From Lacrimispora celerecrescens (GTDB lineage Bacteria > Bacillota > Clostridia > Lachnospirales > Lachnospiraceae): a DNA stretch of 64,000 nt. Shown piece after piece: positions 496-6,514 of the stretch. The stretch is from positions 1 through 64,000 of the forward strand of contig NZ_JPME01000015.1 of assembly GCF_000732605.1 (NCBI RefSeq), written 5' to 3'. A program made the position numbers and the translations under genes. The notes under the pieces are model-generated. The model worked only from the letters and a program-made list of their open reading frames with translations. It had not been told where the DNA came from and did not search any database. Each line of letters opens with the position of its first letter. Position 1 is the stretch's first letter.

Positions 496-636
496 ACGGC
501 TAAAAGAAACCGTGGGGCACACGGAGATAGCTTGTTGATACTGTAACCGTTAGGTTACTTGAGCAAGAAGCCCTCACTTCTAGCATAAGCATTTGGTAGA
601 TCCCAAATGTGGTGCTAAGTGGTGGAAGTATGTCAC
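496..636 (+). ncRNA. putative omega/reRNA scaffold at the IS right end
   Basis: In studied IS605 elements the guide RNA of TnpB is transcribed across the 3' end of tnpB and the right end, with the guide taken from the flanking DNA. This stretch has the expected place and structure: no reading frame of note, several short stems, and a final hairpin region just before the element end. The RNA may start inside tnpB. If the end is at 636, the natural guide would begin at 637 (AAAACAGAATAAAGGCTCTG). Inferred from position and structure only. Confidence 0.4.
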
Positions 637-911
637 AAAACAGAATAAAGGCTCTGTATATTTCAAAAGCCTTAATAGAAAATGATAGTAATAAAGGGAT
701 GTATACGGATACAGATTTATTAAAAGCATTACCGCCTGTTCAATCAATCATAAGCAAAACAGAGAAGGCTCAAAATAAATATGACAAAGAAACAATCCAA
801 TACAGGCGATTTGCGCCTATCATAAGTGCAATGTATATTTCGAAAAACTTTATAGAGGATGAAATCTCGAATCGAACACAGGAAACTCATATTGACTTTT
901 CAAGCAATTGA
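630..911 (+). CDS. small hypothetical protein, possibly a gene remnant downstream of the IS
   Basis: A 93-codon frame from ATG 630, which lies in the last bases of the IS right end; an earlier in-frame ATG at 609 is also inside the element. I do not recognise the family. Two similar short stretches, ALYISKALIEND and AMYISKNFIEDE, hint at an internal duplication. The ribosome site before 630 is poor (GGTGGAAG is part of the IS end). The frame may therefore be the tail of a gene cut by the insertion rather than an intact gene. The AT-rich composition matches the resistance genes downstream. Confidence 0.35.
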   Translation: MSQNRIKALYISKALIENDSNKGMYTDTDLLKALPPVQSIISKTEKAQNKYDKETIQYRRFAPIISAMYISKNFIEDEISNRTQETHIDFSSN

Positions 912-953
912 TAGTACAATGGTAAAAAATAAATTGAGGTGAAAAGATGATTA

Positions 954-1040
954 ATTTTTCTTGCTAATTTTTCCAGTACAATGAATACGAAGCGAAACAG
1001 GGGTGTCCTGTTTGTTTTGTTGTACTCATGCAAGAAAAAT
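954..1040 (+). repeat. nested inverted repeat with terminator-like core
   Basis: Three nested pairs of arms share one centre: ATTTTTCTTGC (954-964) with GCAAGAAAAAT (1030-1040), GTACAA (976-981) with TTGTAC (1020-1025), and AAACAGG (995-1001) with CCTGTTT (1007-1013). The inner hairpin is followed by a T-rich run, so it may end transcription from the left. The outer perfect 11-base arms are more than a terminator needs. It could instead be a small non-autonomous element or a structured leader. Confidence 0.5.
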
Positions 1041-1107
1041 ATTCTTTTTCTCTTAATTTATACACTTTTGTTGTGCTATCCTGTTTAGCTTAACTGCGTA
1101 TATTTAT

Positions 1108-1145
1108 GAGCTGTAAGAATAATTAATTCTTGCAGCTCTATTTTT
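1108..1145 (+). terminator. intrinsic terminator just before the ABC-F leader ORF
   Basis: A 13-bp stem (GAGCTGTAAGAAT, 1108-1120, with ATTCTTGCAGCTC, 1126-1138; one G-T pair) closes a 5-base loop and is followed by TATTTTTATTT. It lies directly upstream of the leader ORF. It either ends upstream transcription or acts as a first attenuator on the resistance transcript, depending on where the promoter lies. I could not fix the promoter. Confidence 0.6.
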
Positions 1146-1175
1146 ATTTAATCGAAAAGGAGGAGTAATTATATT

Positions 1176-1256
1176 ATGATAAATAAAGACACGTTACTAA
1201 CACATGTTTCTATCCATATAGAGTCGGATACTGCAGGCGGCACTTATATGGAGTAA
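1176..1256 (+). CDS. 26-residue leader peptide of the ABC-F gene
   Basis: A short ORF of 26 codons beginning MINKDTLLTH and ending TYME before TAA. It has a strong ribosome site (AAAAGGAGGAG, 1156-1166) at good spacing. It ends 65 bases before the ABC-F start. Leader ORFs of this kind control many ribosome-protection ABC-F genes: a drug-stalled ribosome on the leader changes RNA folding. The 3' end of the ORF (TATATGGA, 1245-1252) is also the right arm of a stem whose left arm is 1213-1220. The cfr-type gene downstream has a leader of the same length, ending in the same two residues. Confidence 0.65.
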   Translation: MINKDTLLTHVSIHIESDTAGGTYME

Positions 1257-1290
1257 TAACAAGGTCGCCTATTGTTCCGACTTTGTTATT
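1213..1290 (+). promoter_or_regulatory. attenuator with alternative hairpins before the ABC-F gene
   Basis: Three pairings are visible. Stem A lies in the leader ORF: TCCATATA (1213-1220) with TATATGGA (1245-1252). Stem T follows the leader stop: AATAACAAGGTCG (1255-1267) with CGACTTTGTTATT (1278-1290), one G-T pair, then an A/T-rich run. A competing pairing joins AGTCGGA (1222-1228) to TCCGACT (1276-1282), which would break stem T. This is the layout of ribosome-mediated attenuation. The T-run after stem T is imperfect, so it may pause or terminate only weakly. Confidence 0.55.
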
Positions 1291-1321
1291 TAAATTATTA
1301 AATTCAGAGGAGGACAAATAT

Positions 1322-2800
1322 ATGTCTTTAATAAATGTTGCAAACCTTACCTTTGCTTATGAAGGTAGTTATGATAATATTTTTGAAAATGTAAGCTTTC
1401 AGATTGATACCGATTGGAAATTAGGCTTTACCGGAAGAAATGGCAGAGGAAAGACAACGTTTTTAAATCTTTTGCTGGGTAAATACGAATATAGCGGAAG
1501 CATTTCAGCGAATATAACGTTTGAATATTTTCCTTATGAAGTGCAGGAACAAAGTAATTTCACCATGGATGTTATAAAGGAAATCAGTCCAAATTCGGAG
1601 GATTGGGAGATAGTTAAAGAATTATCATTATTAGATATGGACTATGACACGTTATACAGGCAGTTTTACACACTATCGAAAGGGGAGCAGACCAAAGCAC
1701 TACTGGCTGCTATGTTTTTGAAGGAGAAATCCTTCTTACTGATCGATGAGCCAACCAATCATTTGGATGCAGAAGCCAGACAAAAGCTGAGTGATTACTT
1801 GAAGAAAAAGAAAGGATTTATTCTTATATCCCATGACAGGTCCTTTTTGGATAATTGTATCGATCATATCTTATCCATTAATAAAACTAATATTGAAATA
1901 CAAAAGGGAAATTTTTCTTCATGGTGGAGTAACAAAGAGTTACAGGATCGTTACGAGCTGGCAGAAAATGAGAAATTAAAAAGGGATATCACCAGACTTT
2001 CCAGCGCTGCGAAACGGACTTCCACCTGGTCAGATAGTGTTGAAAGCAGTAAGTATGGAACCACTAATTCCGGAAGCAAATTAGACAGAGGATATGTTGG
2101 ACATAAAGCTGCTAAAATGATGAAGCGTGCCAAAAATATTGAAGCCAGACAACAAAACATGATTGAGGAAAAGTCAAAGCTTCTTAAAAATATTGAATCA
2201 AATGAAAGCTTAAAATTAACACCGTCTTCGTTCCATGATAAAAGACTTGTAGAGCTTACAGATGTTGCAATTAAATATGACGATAAAATAGTCTGTGAAG
2301 GAATAAGTTTCACGATCGAGCAAGGTGAAAAAATTGCTGTTCAAGGAAAGAACGGCAGTGGAAAATCAAGTATATTGAAATTGATTTATGGAGATGACAT
2401 CCCACATAGTGGAATTGTAAGAAAGAACAACAAGCTAATCATCTCGTATGTCTCACAAGATACTTCAGATTTGTATGGTGATTTATCTGAGTATGCAGAT
2501 AAGCAGGGTATTGATGAAAGCTTATTTAAATCCATGCTTAGAAAACTTGATTTTTCAAGAGAACAGTTTGAAAAGCATATCGAAGATTTTAGCGGTGGGC
2601 AGAAGAAAAAGGTACTGCTTGCAAAAAGTCTGTGTGAACGGGCACATTTATATATTTGGGATGAACCATTGAACTTTATTGATGTCATTTCCCGTATGCA
2701 GATTGAGAAGTTATTAACGGAGCAGGAACTTACAATTTTGTTTGTCGAGCATGACAGAACATTTTGTGAAAATGTAGCAACAAAAACAATTAAATTGTAA
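1322..2800 (+). CDS. ABC-F ribosome protection protein, Lsa type
   Basis: Soluble twin-ATPase protein of 492 residues, without membrane segments. Members of the Lsa group bind the ribosome and displace lincosamides, streptogramin A and pleuromutilins. The first ABC domain has Walker A GRNGRGKTT (residues 38-46), signature LSKGEQ and Walker B LLIDEPTNHLD. The second has GKNGSGKSS, FSGGQKK and IWDEPLNFID. A charged linker of about 80 residues joins them, as in resistance ABC-F proteins. I chose ATG 1322 because AGAGGAGG lies just before it and the protein then starts like other Lsa proteins; a frame-open start at 1283 lies inside the attenuator. It is followed after 19 bases by the leader ORF of a cfr-type gene, probably on the same transcript. 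The exact subtype cannot be set without alignment. Confidence 0.88.
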   Translation: MSLINVANLTFAYEGSYDNIFENVSFQIDTDWKLGFTGRNGRGKTTFLNLLLGKYEYSGSISANITFEYFPYEVQEQSNFTMDVIKEISPNSEDWEIVKELSLLDMDYDTLYRQFYTLSKGEQTKALLAAMFLKEKSFLLIDEPTNHLDAEARQKLSDYLKKKKGFILISHDRSFLDNCIDHILSINKTNIEIQKGNFSSWWSNKELQDRYELAENEKLKRDITRLSSAAKRTSTWSDSVESSKYGTTNSGSKLDRGYVGHKAAKMMKRAKNIEARQQNMIEEKSKLLKNIESNESLKLTPSSFHDKRLVELTDVAIKYDDKIVCEGISFTIEQGEKIAVQGKNGSGKSSILKLIYGDDIPHSGIVRKNNKLIISYVSQDTSDLYGDLSEYADKQGIDESLFKSMLRKLDFSREQFEKHIEDFSGGQKKKVLLAKSLCERAHLYIWDEPLNFIDVISRMQIEKLLTEQELTILFVEHDRTFCENVATKTIKL

Positions 2801-2819
2801 AGTAGAAAAGGAAATTAAT

Positions 2820-2900
2820 ATGATTAAGGAGTTTTTAATAGCAACACACAATAGGCTCCATGCAAAGCCGGATGTTTTGGGCGACGCTTGCATGGAGTAG
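2820..2900 (+). CDS. 26-residue leader peptide of the cfr-type gene
   Basis: A 26-codon ORF beginning MIKEFLIATH and ending DACME before TAG, with AAAAGGAA as ribosome site. It has the same length as the ABC-F leader, starts with MI, ends with ME-stop, and its last codons again form the right arm of a stem: CTCCATGCAA (2856-2865) with TTGCATGGAG (2888-2897). The two leaders therefore look like diverged copies of one module. No promoter is evident between the ABC-F stop and this ORF, so it is probably read as part of a two-gene operon. Confidence 0.65.
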   Translation: MIKEFLIATHNRLHAKPDVLGDACME

Positions 2901-2957
2901 TATAAGTCGCTAATCATACTGGCTTTGCTTCCTAACGATTAAAAGTGAGGAGGAAGC
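2856..2957 (+). promoter_or_regulatory. translational attenuator masking the cfr ribosome site
   Basis: GCTTCCT (2927-2933) is complementary to AGGAAGC (2951-2957), which overlaps the ribosome site GAGGAGGAAG of the next gene, so the site can be sequestered. GCAAAGCC (2862-2869) in the leader ORF is complementary to GGCTTTGC (2921-2928), and that pairing would compete with the masking stem. Leader stem 2856-2865 with 2888-2897 is perfect over 10 bp. GCGAC (2881-2885) can also pair with GTCGC (2906-2910). The set resembles translational attenuation of erm genes. Confidence 0.6.
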
Positions 2958-2961
2958 CTGC

Positions 2962-3996
2962 GTGAAACAGACTAAAACAAAATATAATAAAATGAATCAA
3001 ATAGTATCAGATTTGAAATTACCTGATTATAGATACGAACAGCTCACTAATGCTATTTTTCATCAAAAAATCGATCAATTTGATAATATGCAGATATTGC
3101 CAAAAGCGTTAAGGAAGGCTTTAACAAATGAGTTTGGAAATCGTGTATCAAGTGTAAAATCTGTTTTTATACAAGATTCCAAACAAGCTGAAAAATTACT
3201 CTTCGAATTAACTGATGGAGAAAAAATAGAAGCTGTTGGACTAAAATATAAACAGGGGTGGGAATCGTTTTGTATATCTACCCAATGTGGTTGTGGTTTT
3301 GGATGTCGTTTTTGTGCAACGGGAAGTGCTGGATTTAAACGCAATCTTACTGCTGATGAGATAACGGACCAATTACTTTATTTCCTTTTTAACAACCATA
3401 GACTAAGTAGTGTTTCGTTTATGGGAATGGGTGAGGCTTTTGCAAATCCAGAGTTATTTGATGCAATAAATATATTAACGGATCAGAAATTATTTGGATT
3501 AGGTCAGCGAAGAGTTACTATTTCAACAGTTGGCATTATTCCGGGAATTCAACGATTGACCAAGGAGTTCCCACAAGTGAATCTGGCCTTTTCCCTTCAT
3601 TCACCATTTGATAAACAACGAAGCGATTTAATGCCTGTAAATAAAAGATTTCCATTGAATGAAGTGATGAAAGCATTGGATGAACATATCATTCATACGG
3701 GCCGGCGGGTGTTTATTGCTTATATCATGCTTGATGGAATTAATGATTCCAAAGATCATGCAGAAGCAGTTGCAGGTTTACTGAAAAGTCGTGGTTCGTG
3801 GGGACATTTATATCACATTGATTTAATCCCTTATAATTCTACTGATAAAACAACAATTAGATTTCAATCTTCAAATGCTATCAGGCAATTTTGCAGTACT
3901 CTAAAGAAAGCCGGTATAAGCGTAACCATTAGAACGCAATTTGGTTCTGAAATTAGTGCTGCATGCGGACAGTTGTATTTTGAAAATGAAGTATGA
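2962..3996 (+). CDS. cfr: Cfr-type 23S rRNA (adenine-2503 C8) methyltransferase
   Basis: Radical SAM enzyme of 344 residues that methylates C8 of A2503 in 23S rRNA. In this family that gives resistance to phenicols, lincosamides, oxazolidinones, pleuromutilins and streptogramin A. The cluster-binding motif is CGFGCRFC (C111, C115, C118), set in WESFCISTQCGCGFGC, which matches Cfr rather than housekeeping RlmN. The C-terminal catalytic cysteine is in SAACGQLY (C335). The N-terminus is short, as in Cfr. The start is GTG 2962, eight bases after GGAGG. From memory the sequence resembles the Cfr(C) branch known from Clostridioides and Campylobacter, but this needs alignment. It ends at a clear terminator, so it is the last gene of the resistance unit. 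Confidence 0.87.
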   Translation: MKQTKTKYNKMNQIVSDLKLPDYRYEQLTNAIFHQKIDQFDNMQILPKALRKALTNEFGNRVSSVKSVFIQDSKQAEKLLFELTDGEKIEAVGLKYKQGWESFCISTQCGCGFGCRFCATGSAGFKRNLTADEITDQLLYFLFNNHRLSSVSFMGMGEAFANPELFDAINILTDQKLFGLGQRRVTISTVGIIPGIQRLTKEFPQVNLAFSLHSPFDKQRSDLMPVNKRFPLNEVMKALDEHIIHTGRRVFIAYIMLDGINDSKDHAEAVAGLLKSRGSWGHLYHIDLIPYNSTDKTTIRFQSSNAIRQFCSTLKKAGISVTIRTQFGSEISAACGQLYFENEV

Positions 3997-4057
3997 TGTT
4001 TGTCACGAATTTTATATCAAAAATTATGCTTATGATTTGTTCATCAGCCAATAGTAG

Positions 4058-4099
4058 AAAACAAGGTGCAGGAATAATAATCTGTACCTTGTTTTTTTG
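4058..4099 (+). terminator. intrinsic terminator of the resistance operon
   Basis: A stem of AACAAGGTGCAG with CTGTACCTTGTT (one G-T pair), followed by seven T. It closes the ABC-F/cfr unit and shows that the open frame overlapping it is not a gene. Confidence 0.85.
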
Positions 4100-4246
4100 T
4101 ATGTCACATGGATTCTGGGACAAATCCATCGGTTACCTGCCTGCTTTTAAAGTAATTCGTTTGGAAATATTTATGAATTTGTTATTCTTTTCATTCATTT
4201 TTATGCTATCATTAAATTATTCTATATTTTTTACGGGGGAGGAAGA

Positions 4247-6514
4247 ATGAATAAAAAAGGCGGAGTAAAGTTAAGCAGAATGCGGCTCTTGTATTATGGG
4301 TTGGGCATTTTGATCAGTTGCTTCTTATTGTGGATTTCTTTTAGTGAAGGAAAGAGGCTGCACTTTTTAGAGATAGAAATTATGCCTGCAAAGCAGAATT
4401 TTGCTATCAATATCGGGGCAAATAGTAAGGATGTCGATATTTTTGCTGCTGAAAAAGGCGTTCATGCTGCGATCTATTATACAGGCAGGTTGGATGAGCA
4501 GCAAATGAGACTAACAATAGGTGGAAATATCAAGGGTAAAACATTAGACAGCACGCCAATCCATCTTTTGCTGTTTGGCCTTGACAATACAGATAATTGG
4601 CAATGGGAAATATTAAGTTCTGTGGGGGTGACTTCGATACACTTTAGTCAAGGAGAGATGACAAATATTCGGGTGTACCTTTACCTGTATGTCGTTGTCG
4701 TATTTGGGATACTGAGTGTATTTCTGCTTTTTAGAAACAATGGTGAAAATAGAAGTTATGCAAAGGAAAGTTTGTTGGAATTTACGGATGACCCAGAGAA
4801 TCAGGCAGCATTTGAGGCCGGAAAGCGATGGTTTTTGATTCATGACAGAAGACGATACTGGAACCGGTGCCTGATATTATTTTTTGCCTGTGGATCAGGT
4901 TTTTACATGTTCCAGGAATATTTATACAAATGGGTCATTTTGAAATCATTAGACTATATAGGAATTGTTTTTATTTTAACTCTGGTGATTCTAGGCTTAG
5001 GTGGTACTTTGAAAGTTTGTTGGGCAAAAATGTATATGGAGGTACTTACAAAAGAGAATCGGCCCCTTACTGCAGCAGTAGCTTTTCTTATGGAGGCAGC
5101 ATATGGTCCCTATCGTCATCAGTCTTACTTTAAGAAACAAGTACATAATGCTGCCGTCGGACTTTCCAGGGCCGGAAGATATGTGCAGGCTTTAAAGATG
5201 GCAGATTATGGCTGGAAAGGTGCTCAGGAGAAGAAACTGATGCAGCTTGCTCACAGTAATTTATGTTACGTATGCTTCATAGGTCTGGGCAGGCTTTTAG
5301 ATGCTGAAGCAGAATATTCGTACCAGAAGCAGCTTGTAAAAAAACATCCCGGACTAAAAAGGATGGGGGAGGCGATCCTTCTTTTATCTGAAATCAGGAA
5401 GGCTTATATTGAACAGAAATTTGGACAGGTGGAAGCCTATGTAAATGTATATTGTGATCGTTATTCAGATTCATATCGTCGCATACCGCTAATGCCCATT
5501 CAGATGAAAGTTTATGAACAAGCAGGTGAAATGGAGAAGGCAAAAAATATCTGTGGCAATCTTCTTTCATACAGCCCTGAAAATATAGCAGTCAGGCAGG
5601 TAATGGAACATGGAGCTTGTACCTATGTAGAATCTCCAGGCTTTCTCAAAGATAAGACCGGCCTTGTATGCCGGATTGTTTTAACCGGAGTTCTTGGCAT
5701 TTACATGGTGCTGTTTGGAATTCTTATGTTAATGGAACCACATCATTGGGAAACTAGTAAAACGATAACATATGAAGAGACGAAAGTCGAAGAACACATA
5801 CAACAAACAACTGCTGCAGAGAAGGCAGAAGATGAGCAGATGGAAACAGAGATATCTGAAACGGAGGGAGAGCCGACTTATCAGGCTTCTAATACTCAGG
5901 CGCCGGGCTTTGAGATGGATTTGCCGAAAGAATGGAATAGTCTGGCAGTCAGAAATGAGTTTAAAGGAGGGTGCAGCTACCATCAAAAAAAATCCTATGA
6001 CTTGATAGGGGATGGGGTTTTATTCTATATTCAGGCATATTCGGACTGCAGCTATGTTAATCTGCCAGACTATCATATATGGGGATATGATGGTCCTTAT
6101 GTTTATGTAATGTCAGAGCCTACAGATGTGACGTTTTATACGGAAGACAATGCAATAATGGAGGAATACAATAAAATGCATAATGAGATCAGTCAAATAC
6201 AGGACACTTTCCGTATTCAGTCTGATACGGCAAAATATGATGGATCTGAATTTGTATTTCCTAACAGCAGCGATAGTCTGTTGCAGGAGCCTGATTTATG
6301 GAATCTTTCCGCCAGTCAGCTGCGGATTGCAAAAAATGAGATTTATGCAAGACATGGCAGACGATTTGCGGATGAAGAGTTGCAGAGGTATTTTAATCAA
6401 TGCAGCTGGTATGAAGGATTGATTGACCCAAGAGAGTTTGAAGAAAATGTGCTGAATGAAACAGAGCATTTCAATATCCGATTGATTGATGAACAGCAGA
6501 AAAATATGGAGTAG
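4247..6514 (+). CDS. multi-pass membrane protein with C-terminal YARHG domain
   Basis: A 755-residue protein. Hydrophobic segments lie at about residues 13-31, 144-162, 208-228, 236-258 and 474-496. Residues about 270-450 are helical and TPR-like, probably on one face of the membrane. After the last segment an acidic, Thr/Glu-rich linker (about 505-550) leads to a region with scattered aromatic residues and then a YARHG motif (residues 700-704) near the C-terminus. YARHG domains are usually extracellular in Firmicutes; their ligand is not established. The ribosome site GGGGAGGAAG precedes ATG 4247. It stands alone between two terminators. Its role is unknown; envelope sensing or stress is a guess from the layout. 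Confidence 0.75.
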   Translation: MNKKGGVKLSRMRLLYYGLGILISCFLLWISFSEGKRLHFLEIEIMPAKQNFAINIGANSKDVDIFAAEKGVHAAIYYTGRLDEQQMRLTIGGNIKGKTLDSTPIHLLLFGLDNTDNWQWEILSSVGVTSIHFSQGEMTNIRVYLYLYVVVVFGILSVFLLFRNNGENRSYAKESLLEFTDDPENQAAFEAGKRWFLIHDRRRYWNRCLILFFACGSGFYMFQEYLYKWVILKSLDYIGIVFILTLVILGLGGTLKVCWAKMYMEVLTKENRPLTAAVAFLMEAAYGPYRHQSYFKKQVHNAAVGLSRAGRYVQALKMADYGWKGAQEKKLMQLAHSNLCYVCFIGLGRLLDAEAEYSYQKQLVKKHPGLKRMGEAILLLSEIRKAYIEQKFGQVEAYVNVYCDRYSDSYRRIPLMPIQMKVYEQAGEMEKAKNICGNLLSYSPENIAVRQVMEHGACTYVESPGFLKDKTGLVCRIVLTGVLGIYMVLFGILMLMEPHHWETSKTITYEETKVEEHIQQTTAAEKAEDEQMETEISETEGEPTYQASNTQAPGFEMDLPKEWNSLAVRNEFKGGCSYHQKKSYDLIGDGVLFYIQAYSDCSYVNLPDYHIWGYDGPYVYVMSEPTDVTFYTEDNAIMEEYNKMHNEISQIQDTFRIQSDTAKYDGSEFVFPNSSDSLLQEPDLWNLSASQLRIAKNEIYARHGRRFADEELQRYFNQCSWYEGLIDPREFEENVLNETEHFNIRLIDEQQKNME

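Follow-up and report, generated by a model that had tools for sequence, protein, structure and literature searches.

We analysed the first 64,000 nucleotides of contig NZ_JPME01000015.1 of Lacrimispora celerecrescens (assembly GCF_000732605.1), a stretch referred to below as the window, and describe here two resistance genes near its start, lsa and cfr, together with the short leader open reading frames (ORFs) that precede them. The window begins at base 1 of the contig, which is 325,829 bases long in a genome of 5,035,064 bases. All features from the promoter-like site to cfr that are given by coordinates below lie on the + strand.

The lsa-cfr locus and its leaders

The first gene (1322-2800) encodes an Lsa-family ABC-F ribosomal protection protein of 492 amino acids, which scores 759.9 bits against the NCBIfam model NF000167 (cut-off 750). 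The only solved structure that it matches at E-values up to 1e-100 is Lsa(A) (7nhk). The second gene (2962-3996, GTG start) encodes a Cfr-family 23S rRNA A2503 methyltransferase of 344 amino acids, which passes the cut-offs of TIGR04432 (612 bits against 550) and NF000424 (591.2 against 530) and for which the best-matching solved structure is Cfr (9p0p). By eye, the protein has a CxxxCxxC motif and two more cysteines, a pattern that we take to be typical of Cfr. The gene identities given in the original prediction, which was made from the sequence alone, are borne out by the family profiles. The window Cfr was not assigned to a named plasmid type (A, C or D). In a comparison that covered cfr, cfr(C) and cfr(D), it is 55.1-56.1% identical to those cfr and cfr(C) records that were listed and 50.3-51.0% identical to listed cfr(D) records, and its identity stays below 60% with all 178 plasmid records (40 of them listed).

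Leader ORF 1 (MINKDTLLTHVSIHIESDTAGGTYME, then a stop; 1176-1256) stands before lsa and is conserved in L003-L010, where L numbers denote the loci compared. Leader ORF 2 (MIKEFLIATHNRLHAKPDVLGDACME, then a stop; 2820-2900) stands before cfr and was found, at E=2.9e-8, by a covariance model of 12 lsa leaders from other genomes that held no sequence from the window and no cfr leader. Each consists of 26 sense codons, beginning MI and ending ME, as first described from the sequence, and the reported TCCAT arm is present, lying at ORF nucleotides 38-42 within the segment that we call arm A, with its partner ATGGA at the ORF end. Each leader region contains four arms in the order A, B, A' and B', followed by the Shine-Dalgarno (SD) sequence of the resistance gene, and A, B and A' fall within the leader ORF. 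In leader 1, arm A (1212-1221) pairs with A' (1244-1253, the last codons, ATGGAG), and arm B (1218-1241), which overlaps A, pairs with B' (1264-1287). The CCGACTTTGT of B' can alternatively pair with the lsa SD (1308-1313, read directly) and the bases that precede it. In leader 2, arm A lies at 2856-2865, the overlapping arm B at 2862-2885, A' at 2888-2897 and B' at 2906-2928; the cfr SD reads directly at 2948-2953, and GCTTCC at 2927-2932, at B', is complementary to GGAAGC at this SD. Arms A and A' read TCCATATA and TATATGGA in leader 1, and CTCCATGCAA and TTGCATGGAG in leader 2.

Leaders 1 and 2 are homologous. Local alignment of the two elements at the DNA level scores 105, where the best of 1000 dinucleotide shuffles scores 72, and the peptides are identical at 9 of 26 residues, a match that none of 10000 residue shuffles equalled. 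Chance similarity is rejected by these shuffles and by the hit of the lsa-only covariance model on leader 2. The same model also matches, with weaker scores, some of the elements before CD3324-family and transporter genes that are described below.

Two features absent from the original prediction lie upstream of leader 1. A six-codon upstream ORF (uORF), MINFSC followed by a stop, was read directly at 947-967, and a terminator scan found an intrinsic terminator hairpin of 13 pairs followed by the T-rich tail TATTTTTATT (1108-1138). The probable transcript start is marked by a promoter-like site, TTGACT-17-TACAAT (892-920), which a consensus scan ranked as the top match in 600-4300 with 10 of 12 positions; promoter evidence is weak, because 15 sites were found against a mean of 15.9 in shuffles. 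By eye, TTTTTCTTGC of the uORF is able to pair with GCAAGAAAAA at 1030-1039, and TTCTTGC in the 3' arm of the terminator is complementary to GCAAGAA at 1030-1036, a possible antiterminator. The MINFSC uORF, these arms and the terminator together resemble a transcription attenuator of the VmlR/CplR kind. MIN(F/L)SC uORFs also lie upstream of at least eight Lsa genes that have no 26-codon leader (L045, L052, L056, L057, L060, L064, L068 and L077).

The adjacency of lsa and cfr is confirmed, with 19 nucleotides between the lsa stop and leader 2. The scan for + strand terminators gave sites at 995-1013, 1108-1138 and 2628-2643 (the last within lsa), and none between lsa and leader 2. The operon order is promoter-like site, MINFSC uORF, terminator, leader 1, lsa, leader 2 and cfr, and both leader switches are probably carried on one transcript.

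Exclusive helices in a wider RNA family

We compared the two leaders with related sequences in other genomes, where the leader ORFs and arms proved to be conserved with compensatory changes. The original prediction would have fallen had leader ORFs and paired arms lacked such conservation, so it survives the part of its own test that could be run, and the computation supports its picture of two leader switches of one design. The largest alignment, A4, has 74 rows from 66 of 143 sources; copies and near-copies (L010, L046, L091, L092, L103, L104, L116, L117, L120 and L121), a locus whose gene is cut at the contig end (L105) and a remnant (L013) stand outside it. Lsa loci on both strands were surveyed for leaders.

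The two helices are mutually exclusive; arm A shares bases with arm B, and the loop closed by B:B' contains A'. Both are supported by covariation. A4 was fitted to B:B' and not to A:A', which lies outside the model. Of the 737 cells of A:A', 95.7% are paired, and 8 of its 10 pairs show double changes; cells count sequences rather than events, and related rows share changes. Against 500 shuffles, none reached the paired share or the covariation score of A:A', one reached its number of doubly changed pairs and 24 its number of pair types; slid versions of the helix pair at only 28-52%. For B:B', to which the alignment was fitted, 94.3% of 1235 cells are paired and 15 of the 18 pairs show double changes. 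In the first 18 leaders the count for A:A' had been 3 of 10, and the five double-change pairs all fell in B:B' (18 pairs). RNAalifold gave B:B' with A on the SD for those 18 leaders, and A:A' with B' on the SD for the 12 lsa leaders. The B':SD helix is paired in 95.8% of cells, and its support rests mainly on pairing because a double change occurs at only one of its eight pairs. Of 20 transporter elements, 10 have an SD, GGAGCAAAGTC, that copies the motif GCAAAGTC of arm B, and in L087 the B' arm complements both the SD copy and the arm B motif.

The leaders are members of a larger RNA family, apparently undescribed, that stands before several kinds of resistance-like genes. The genes that follow the A4 elements are CD3324-family genes (24), major facilitator superfamily (MFS) or Mef-like transporters (20), Lsa (18), Cfr (10), a PF00756 esterase-like gene (1) and a ribosomal protein L4 gene (1); next-gene families were taken from among the 25 commonest listed, and the Cfr count comes from separate tallies. 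All 20 transporters match TIGR00900 and 19 match Mef models. A search for the CD3324 family also gave a hit in Bacillus subtilis. The esterase-like gene is that of L134, and a role as a drug-inactivating enzyme is a guess.

Eight loci with Cfr at 79-86% identity (L003-L010, from Clostridium, Terrisporobacter, Metaclostridioides, Tissierella and others) have lsa followed by cfr, with a leader before each; L003 keeps both leaders although its lsa is truncated. The cfr leader is also present in L011 and L026 (Cfr 65-66%), with no lsa in the stretch examined. Searches with two models, R1 (18 leaders) and R2 (31 elements), gave matches in 3 of 398 phylum genomes (R1, E up to 0.01) and in 13 of 391 class genomes and 38 of 200 genomes of the window's family, one per genus (R2, E up to 0.05); these counts include the window's own genome, and under their stricter filters weak matches can be missed. 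That genome holds a third element (G000:C18 255917-256047, L087), which precedes a 434-residue Mef-like transporter that scores far below the Mef cut-offs. Its further matches L088-L090 (E 3.1 to 9.5) were taken as background, and their translations indicate that other kinds of gene follow. Rfam 15 gave no match in the window at the gathering score, and at E up to 1 the only matches in nine further loci were to rox2 and MIR5649, below gathering and chance-like. Plasmid searches found no match for the operon (near mode) or for either leader or a CD3324 element (distant mode). The viral contigs searched held no Cfr relative, and one CD3324 element was present among three pattern matches.

In Paenibacillus and relatives, cfr is preceded by a different leader of 36 codons, which is strongly conserved in L012-L024 and L028 (for example MFEVVNVHVNRSLSVGTVHDQTKRMPEHYPSIDRCT, then a stop); in most of these the scan described below predicts that the SD closes once the ribosome passes the Val-His codons 18-19. 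Here the family element lies behind cfr. It precedes a CD3324-family gene in L012, L015, L017, L018, L022 and L023, precedes lsa in L028, runs into a ribosomal protein L4 gene in L021 and is a remnant in L013. R2 had no match at E up to 1 at L014, L016, L019, L020, L024 and L025. A third leader type, starting M(I/L)TVF, stands before cfr in L079 (a Staphylococcus aureus plasmid), L081 (cfr(D)) and L025 (Bacillus). The L4 gene is found behind cfr in L012, L015, L017, L018, L021, L022 and L023, with copies 65-100% identical to that of L021 and only a fragment in L012, and by eye an L3-like gene follows cfr in L025. These L4 and L3 genes may be extra copies, with a possible link to drug resistance.

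The wider comparison narrows what is constant in the leader format. The 26 codons, MI start and ME end hold in the window, and the length holds at the clostridial lsa-cfr loci; elsewhere in the family it varies, with 16 codons before the L028 lsa, mostly 20 before the Paenibacillus CD3324 genes and 12 before many transporters. The MI of leader 2 is local, its relatives starting MF or MY, and the ME end is common but not universal (the L009/L010 lsa leader ends MK). We therefore rejected 26 codons or the ME-stop as the conserved feature. What stays constant is how far the sensor motif lies from arm A, to which we return below.

It had also been suggested that one cassette was duplicated in this operon and then diverged. 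This is disfavoured by a tree of 73 elements (without L134; the CD3324P label also covers L021, which stands before a ribosomal protein L4 gene), in which the leaders of the two genes fall apart: cfr leaders group with CD3324-gene leaders (support 98/97), and operon lsa leaders group with the lsa leaders of L028, L094, L119 and L122 from other genomes (88/91). The lsa leaders of L047, L074, L085, L115 and L097 fall elsewhere. The elements are homologous, as a duplication requires, and a single clade of cfr and operon lsa leaders, although 15.9 log units worse, was not rejected by the approximately unbiased (AU) test (p=0.152, counting L093 as an operon lsa leader on the assumption that cfr follows). 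On balance we regard duplication within this operon as unlikely, and the split in the tree makes it more likely that each gene brought its own member of an older family. The lsa SD of L045 reads like a fusion of a leader SD and a gene SD, which suits leader loss by deletion between the two; gain is the alternative.

Proposed sensor motifs and the predicted switch

Each leader ORF carries a conserved motif, and folding predicts that the SD downstream of it is closed. In all 31 in-frame leaders of the Lsa, Cfr and Paenibacillus-group classes, a Thr codon lies 12 nucleotides and a His codon 9 nucleotides before arm A. In the window these are Thr9-His10, at 1200-1205 in leader 1 and 2844-2849 in leader 2, the proposed stall sites on grounds of motif conservation and a folding scan (the optimum in leader 1 is at codons 9-10). 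Both residues are kept with synonymous codons (Thr: ACA 23, ACC 6, ACG 1, ACT 1; His: CAT 24, CAC 7), which argues for selection on the peptide. Among the remaining CD3324 leaders whose uORF is clear, 17 of 17 have Asn 12 nucleotides before A, following a mostly basic stretch. Most transporter-class leaders read arm A in another frame. The frame-1 transporter leaders (n=16) have Leu 16 nucleotides before A in 15, Cys 13 nucleotides before it in 13 and Ile 10 nucleotides before it in 14, and the frame-0 transporter leaders (n=3) have a different motif. The spacing from motif to arm is fixed, whereas that from motif to start varies (L015, L028 and L097; basic-Asn leaders have 21-39 nucleotides from start to A), so the peptide and RNA parts appear to have been selected separately. 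The uORF starts were chosen by a simple SD score, which placed the start of four cfr leaders four codons too far upstream, and L084, L134 and L138, whose uORFs are uncertain, stand outside the scan and class tables.

The folding scan placed a ribosome on each codon in turn, masking P-13 to P+15, and computed the cost of opening the downstream SD. Among 71 elements, the ribosome that best opens the SD (optimum taken within 0.2 kcal/mol) lies 8-16 nucleotides before A in 67, a range set after an earlier scan. By class this is 9 of 10 Cfr, 12 of 14 in-frame Lsa, 6 of 7 Paenibacillus-group, 17 of 17 other CD3324, 4 of 4 frame-2 Lsa, 16 of 16 frame-1 transporter and 3 of 3 frame-0 transporter elements, and the class mean falls 9-12 nucleotides before A in all seven classes. 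For the window lsa, the predicted cost of opening the SD is 1.8 kcal/mol without a ribosome, 0.5 with one at Thr-His and 6.7 five codons on; for cfr the values are 7.6, 5.0 and 9.2 kcal/mol. When the sequence from Thr-His to the SD was shuffled, the swing between opening and closing was matched by 0 or 1 of 100 shuffles in 8 of 10 elements (the position five codons beyond Thr-His was picked after an earlier scan).

Taken together, these results lead us to propose, with a probability of roughly three in four, that each leader is a translational attenuator with an exchangeable stall motif, and that the lsa leader acts below a VmlR-like transcription attenuator. The proposal draws on sequence comparison and modelled folding. 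Without drug, the SD of lsa or cfr would be closed, with A:A' formed and B' and the bases after it paired around the SD; in an alternative closed state, arm A itself (CUCC) would pair with the SD (GGAG). A drug-bound ribosome stalled with Thr-His in its E and P sites would cover A and leave B uncovered. B could then pair with B', freeing the SD for translation of the resistance gene, and a ribosome that moved on would cover B and close the switch. The sensor part, the codons 9-13 nucleotides before A, would be separable from the switch part formed by the arms, and other family members have basic-Asn or Leu-Cys-Ile where these leaders have Thr-His. Since lsa sits below the transcription attenuator it would be gated twice, and cfr would have its own gate on the same RNA. 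Stalling of drug-bound ribosomes at Thr-His and induction in cells are inferred. Arrest by linezolid and chloramphenicol is reported in PMC8987054 to be best with penultimate Ala and less so with Ser or Thr, the codon of the penultimate residue lying in the E site; by this account Thr would occupy the E site and His the P site.

Simple coupling, in which the leader ORFs only link translation to the next gene and the helices act as stabilisers without drug sensing, would suit the shortness of the leaders, most of which end upstream of the SD, and a ribosome that had reached the stop codon would disrupt A:A'. In L084, where the uORF is uncertain, such a ribosome cuts the opening cost from 8.4 to 4.5 kcal/mol. 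In 18 elements, however, it cuts the cost by at most 0.7 kcal/mol, and it raises it in all nine lsa elements. The stop position is not conserved, whereas the spacing of Thr or Asn to arm A is, and of the 74 matches 48 stand before an Lsa, Cfr or Mef-like gene and 24 before a CD3324 gene. We consider this explanation quite improbable. Even less probable, in our judgement, is a signal in the RNA only, with A:A' and B:B' forming a pseudoknot that binds a ligand or protein and the ORFs incidental. The two helices do interleave, and the arms are conserved across reading frames. Against such a signal stand the Thr-His kept with synonymous codons, the Asn in 17 of 17 leaders and the Leu-Cys-Ile of most frame-1 transporter leaders, all at a fixed distance before A and outside both covarying helices.

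Several observations weigh against the attenuator proposal. The assumed footprint by itself favours sites about 9-15 nucleotides before A. The scan is therefore a test only of whether the SD opens when A is hidden and B is left free, and the independent fact is that the conserved motifs are located in the favoured 8-16 nucleotide range. Other footprints move the optimum by about a codon, and with two of them leader 1 ties at codons 20 or 23. The exceptions to the scan are L005 (cfr), L094 and L097 (lsa) and L012, and for the lsa of L003 the optimum is shallow. In the window, the cfr SD is predicted to open only in part (7.6 to about 5 kcal/mol). Shuffles equalled the swing of L017 and L012 in 7 and 5 of 100 cases, and the plain gain over no ribosome was reached by 3 to 26 of 100 shuffles in 7 of 10 elements. 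Four lsa elements (L047, L074, L085 and L115) have A in another frame and have lost Thr-His. With a threshold of E up to 1, the model of 12 lsa leaders misses L087 and L133, both transporter elements, R2 finds no element at the four plasmid cfr loci L079-L082, and the two CD3324 genes that the genome of the window carries have none either. L045 has an 86%-identical lsa without the leader. The drug sensed by Thr-His is also a guess: linezolid or chloramphenicol, or other drugs of the peptidyl-transferase centre, with lincosamide-type drugs among the candidate inducers.

The region upstream of the operon holds, at the edge of the contig, the 3' portion of a TnpB gene of the IS200/IS605 type (22-495), a segment (about 500-608) that may be the end of the element to which this gene belongs, and, just upstream of the promoter-like site, a 100-codon ORF (609-911) without an NCBIfam or Pfam match.

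Relation to known attenuators

We found no description of this RNA family or its leader peptides, and no paper on the role of CD3324-family proteins, in the text available from the open-licence literature in PubMed Central (PMC), a weak negative because subscription papers fall outside its scope. We lean towards the broader view that one RNA switch has been reused as an output module, with exchangeable drug-sensing peptides (Thr-His, basic-Asn or Leu-Cys-Ile), a fixed spacing of ribosome length and several reading frames, before lsa, cfr, Mef-like and CD3324 genes; on that view the CD3324 proteins would take part in responding to antibiotics that target the ribosome. If so, the leaders of many Lsa, Cfr and Mef-like genes of Bacillota share one RNA platform that Rfam does not match, and CD3324-family proteins become possible antibiotic-response genes. 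Sensor codons could be predicted from their fixed position, and structural studies would gain a set of natural peptides that are candidates for stalling.

That drug-stalled leaders can attenuate resistance genes has been known for a long time. In the outline of the ermC/ErmCL case given in PMC10219788, a drug-stalled ribosome on the leader peptide leads to mRNA refolding and exposure of the SD. The scheme proposed for the window leaders is the same. The family differs from ermC in its A-B-A'-B'-SD order, its interleaved helices, its reading of arm A in different frames, its sensors (Thr-His, basic-Asn and Leu-Cys-Ile) and its genes (lsa, cfr, CD3324 and Mef-like). The streptococcal mef/msr(D) system has the leader peptide MYLIFM. 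Its macrolide resistance genes are likewise under attenuation, which is transcriptional there (PMC4335068 and PMC10314930) and involves another leader peptide than those of the window family. The proximity of cfr and lsa was already noted for Clostridioides difficile and staphylococci in PMC10201436; the gene pair is the same, and the relevant portion of that paper does not mention leader switches for it. The leader regions of VmlR and CplR, described in PMC9226507 and PMC10201436, belong to ABC-F genes and combine a uORF with a terminator and a closed SD. The VmlR uORF is MIN, and the uORF consensuses named in these papers have three or four residues (MIN, MR(I/M), MK(L/Q) and MAGN). The MINFSC uORF and terminator of the window resemble this kind. 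The window differs in that a second switch, with a long leader, follows the terminator and a third switch precedes cfr.

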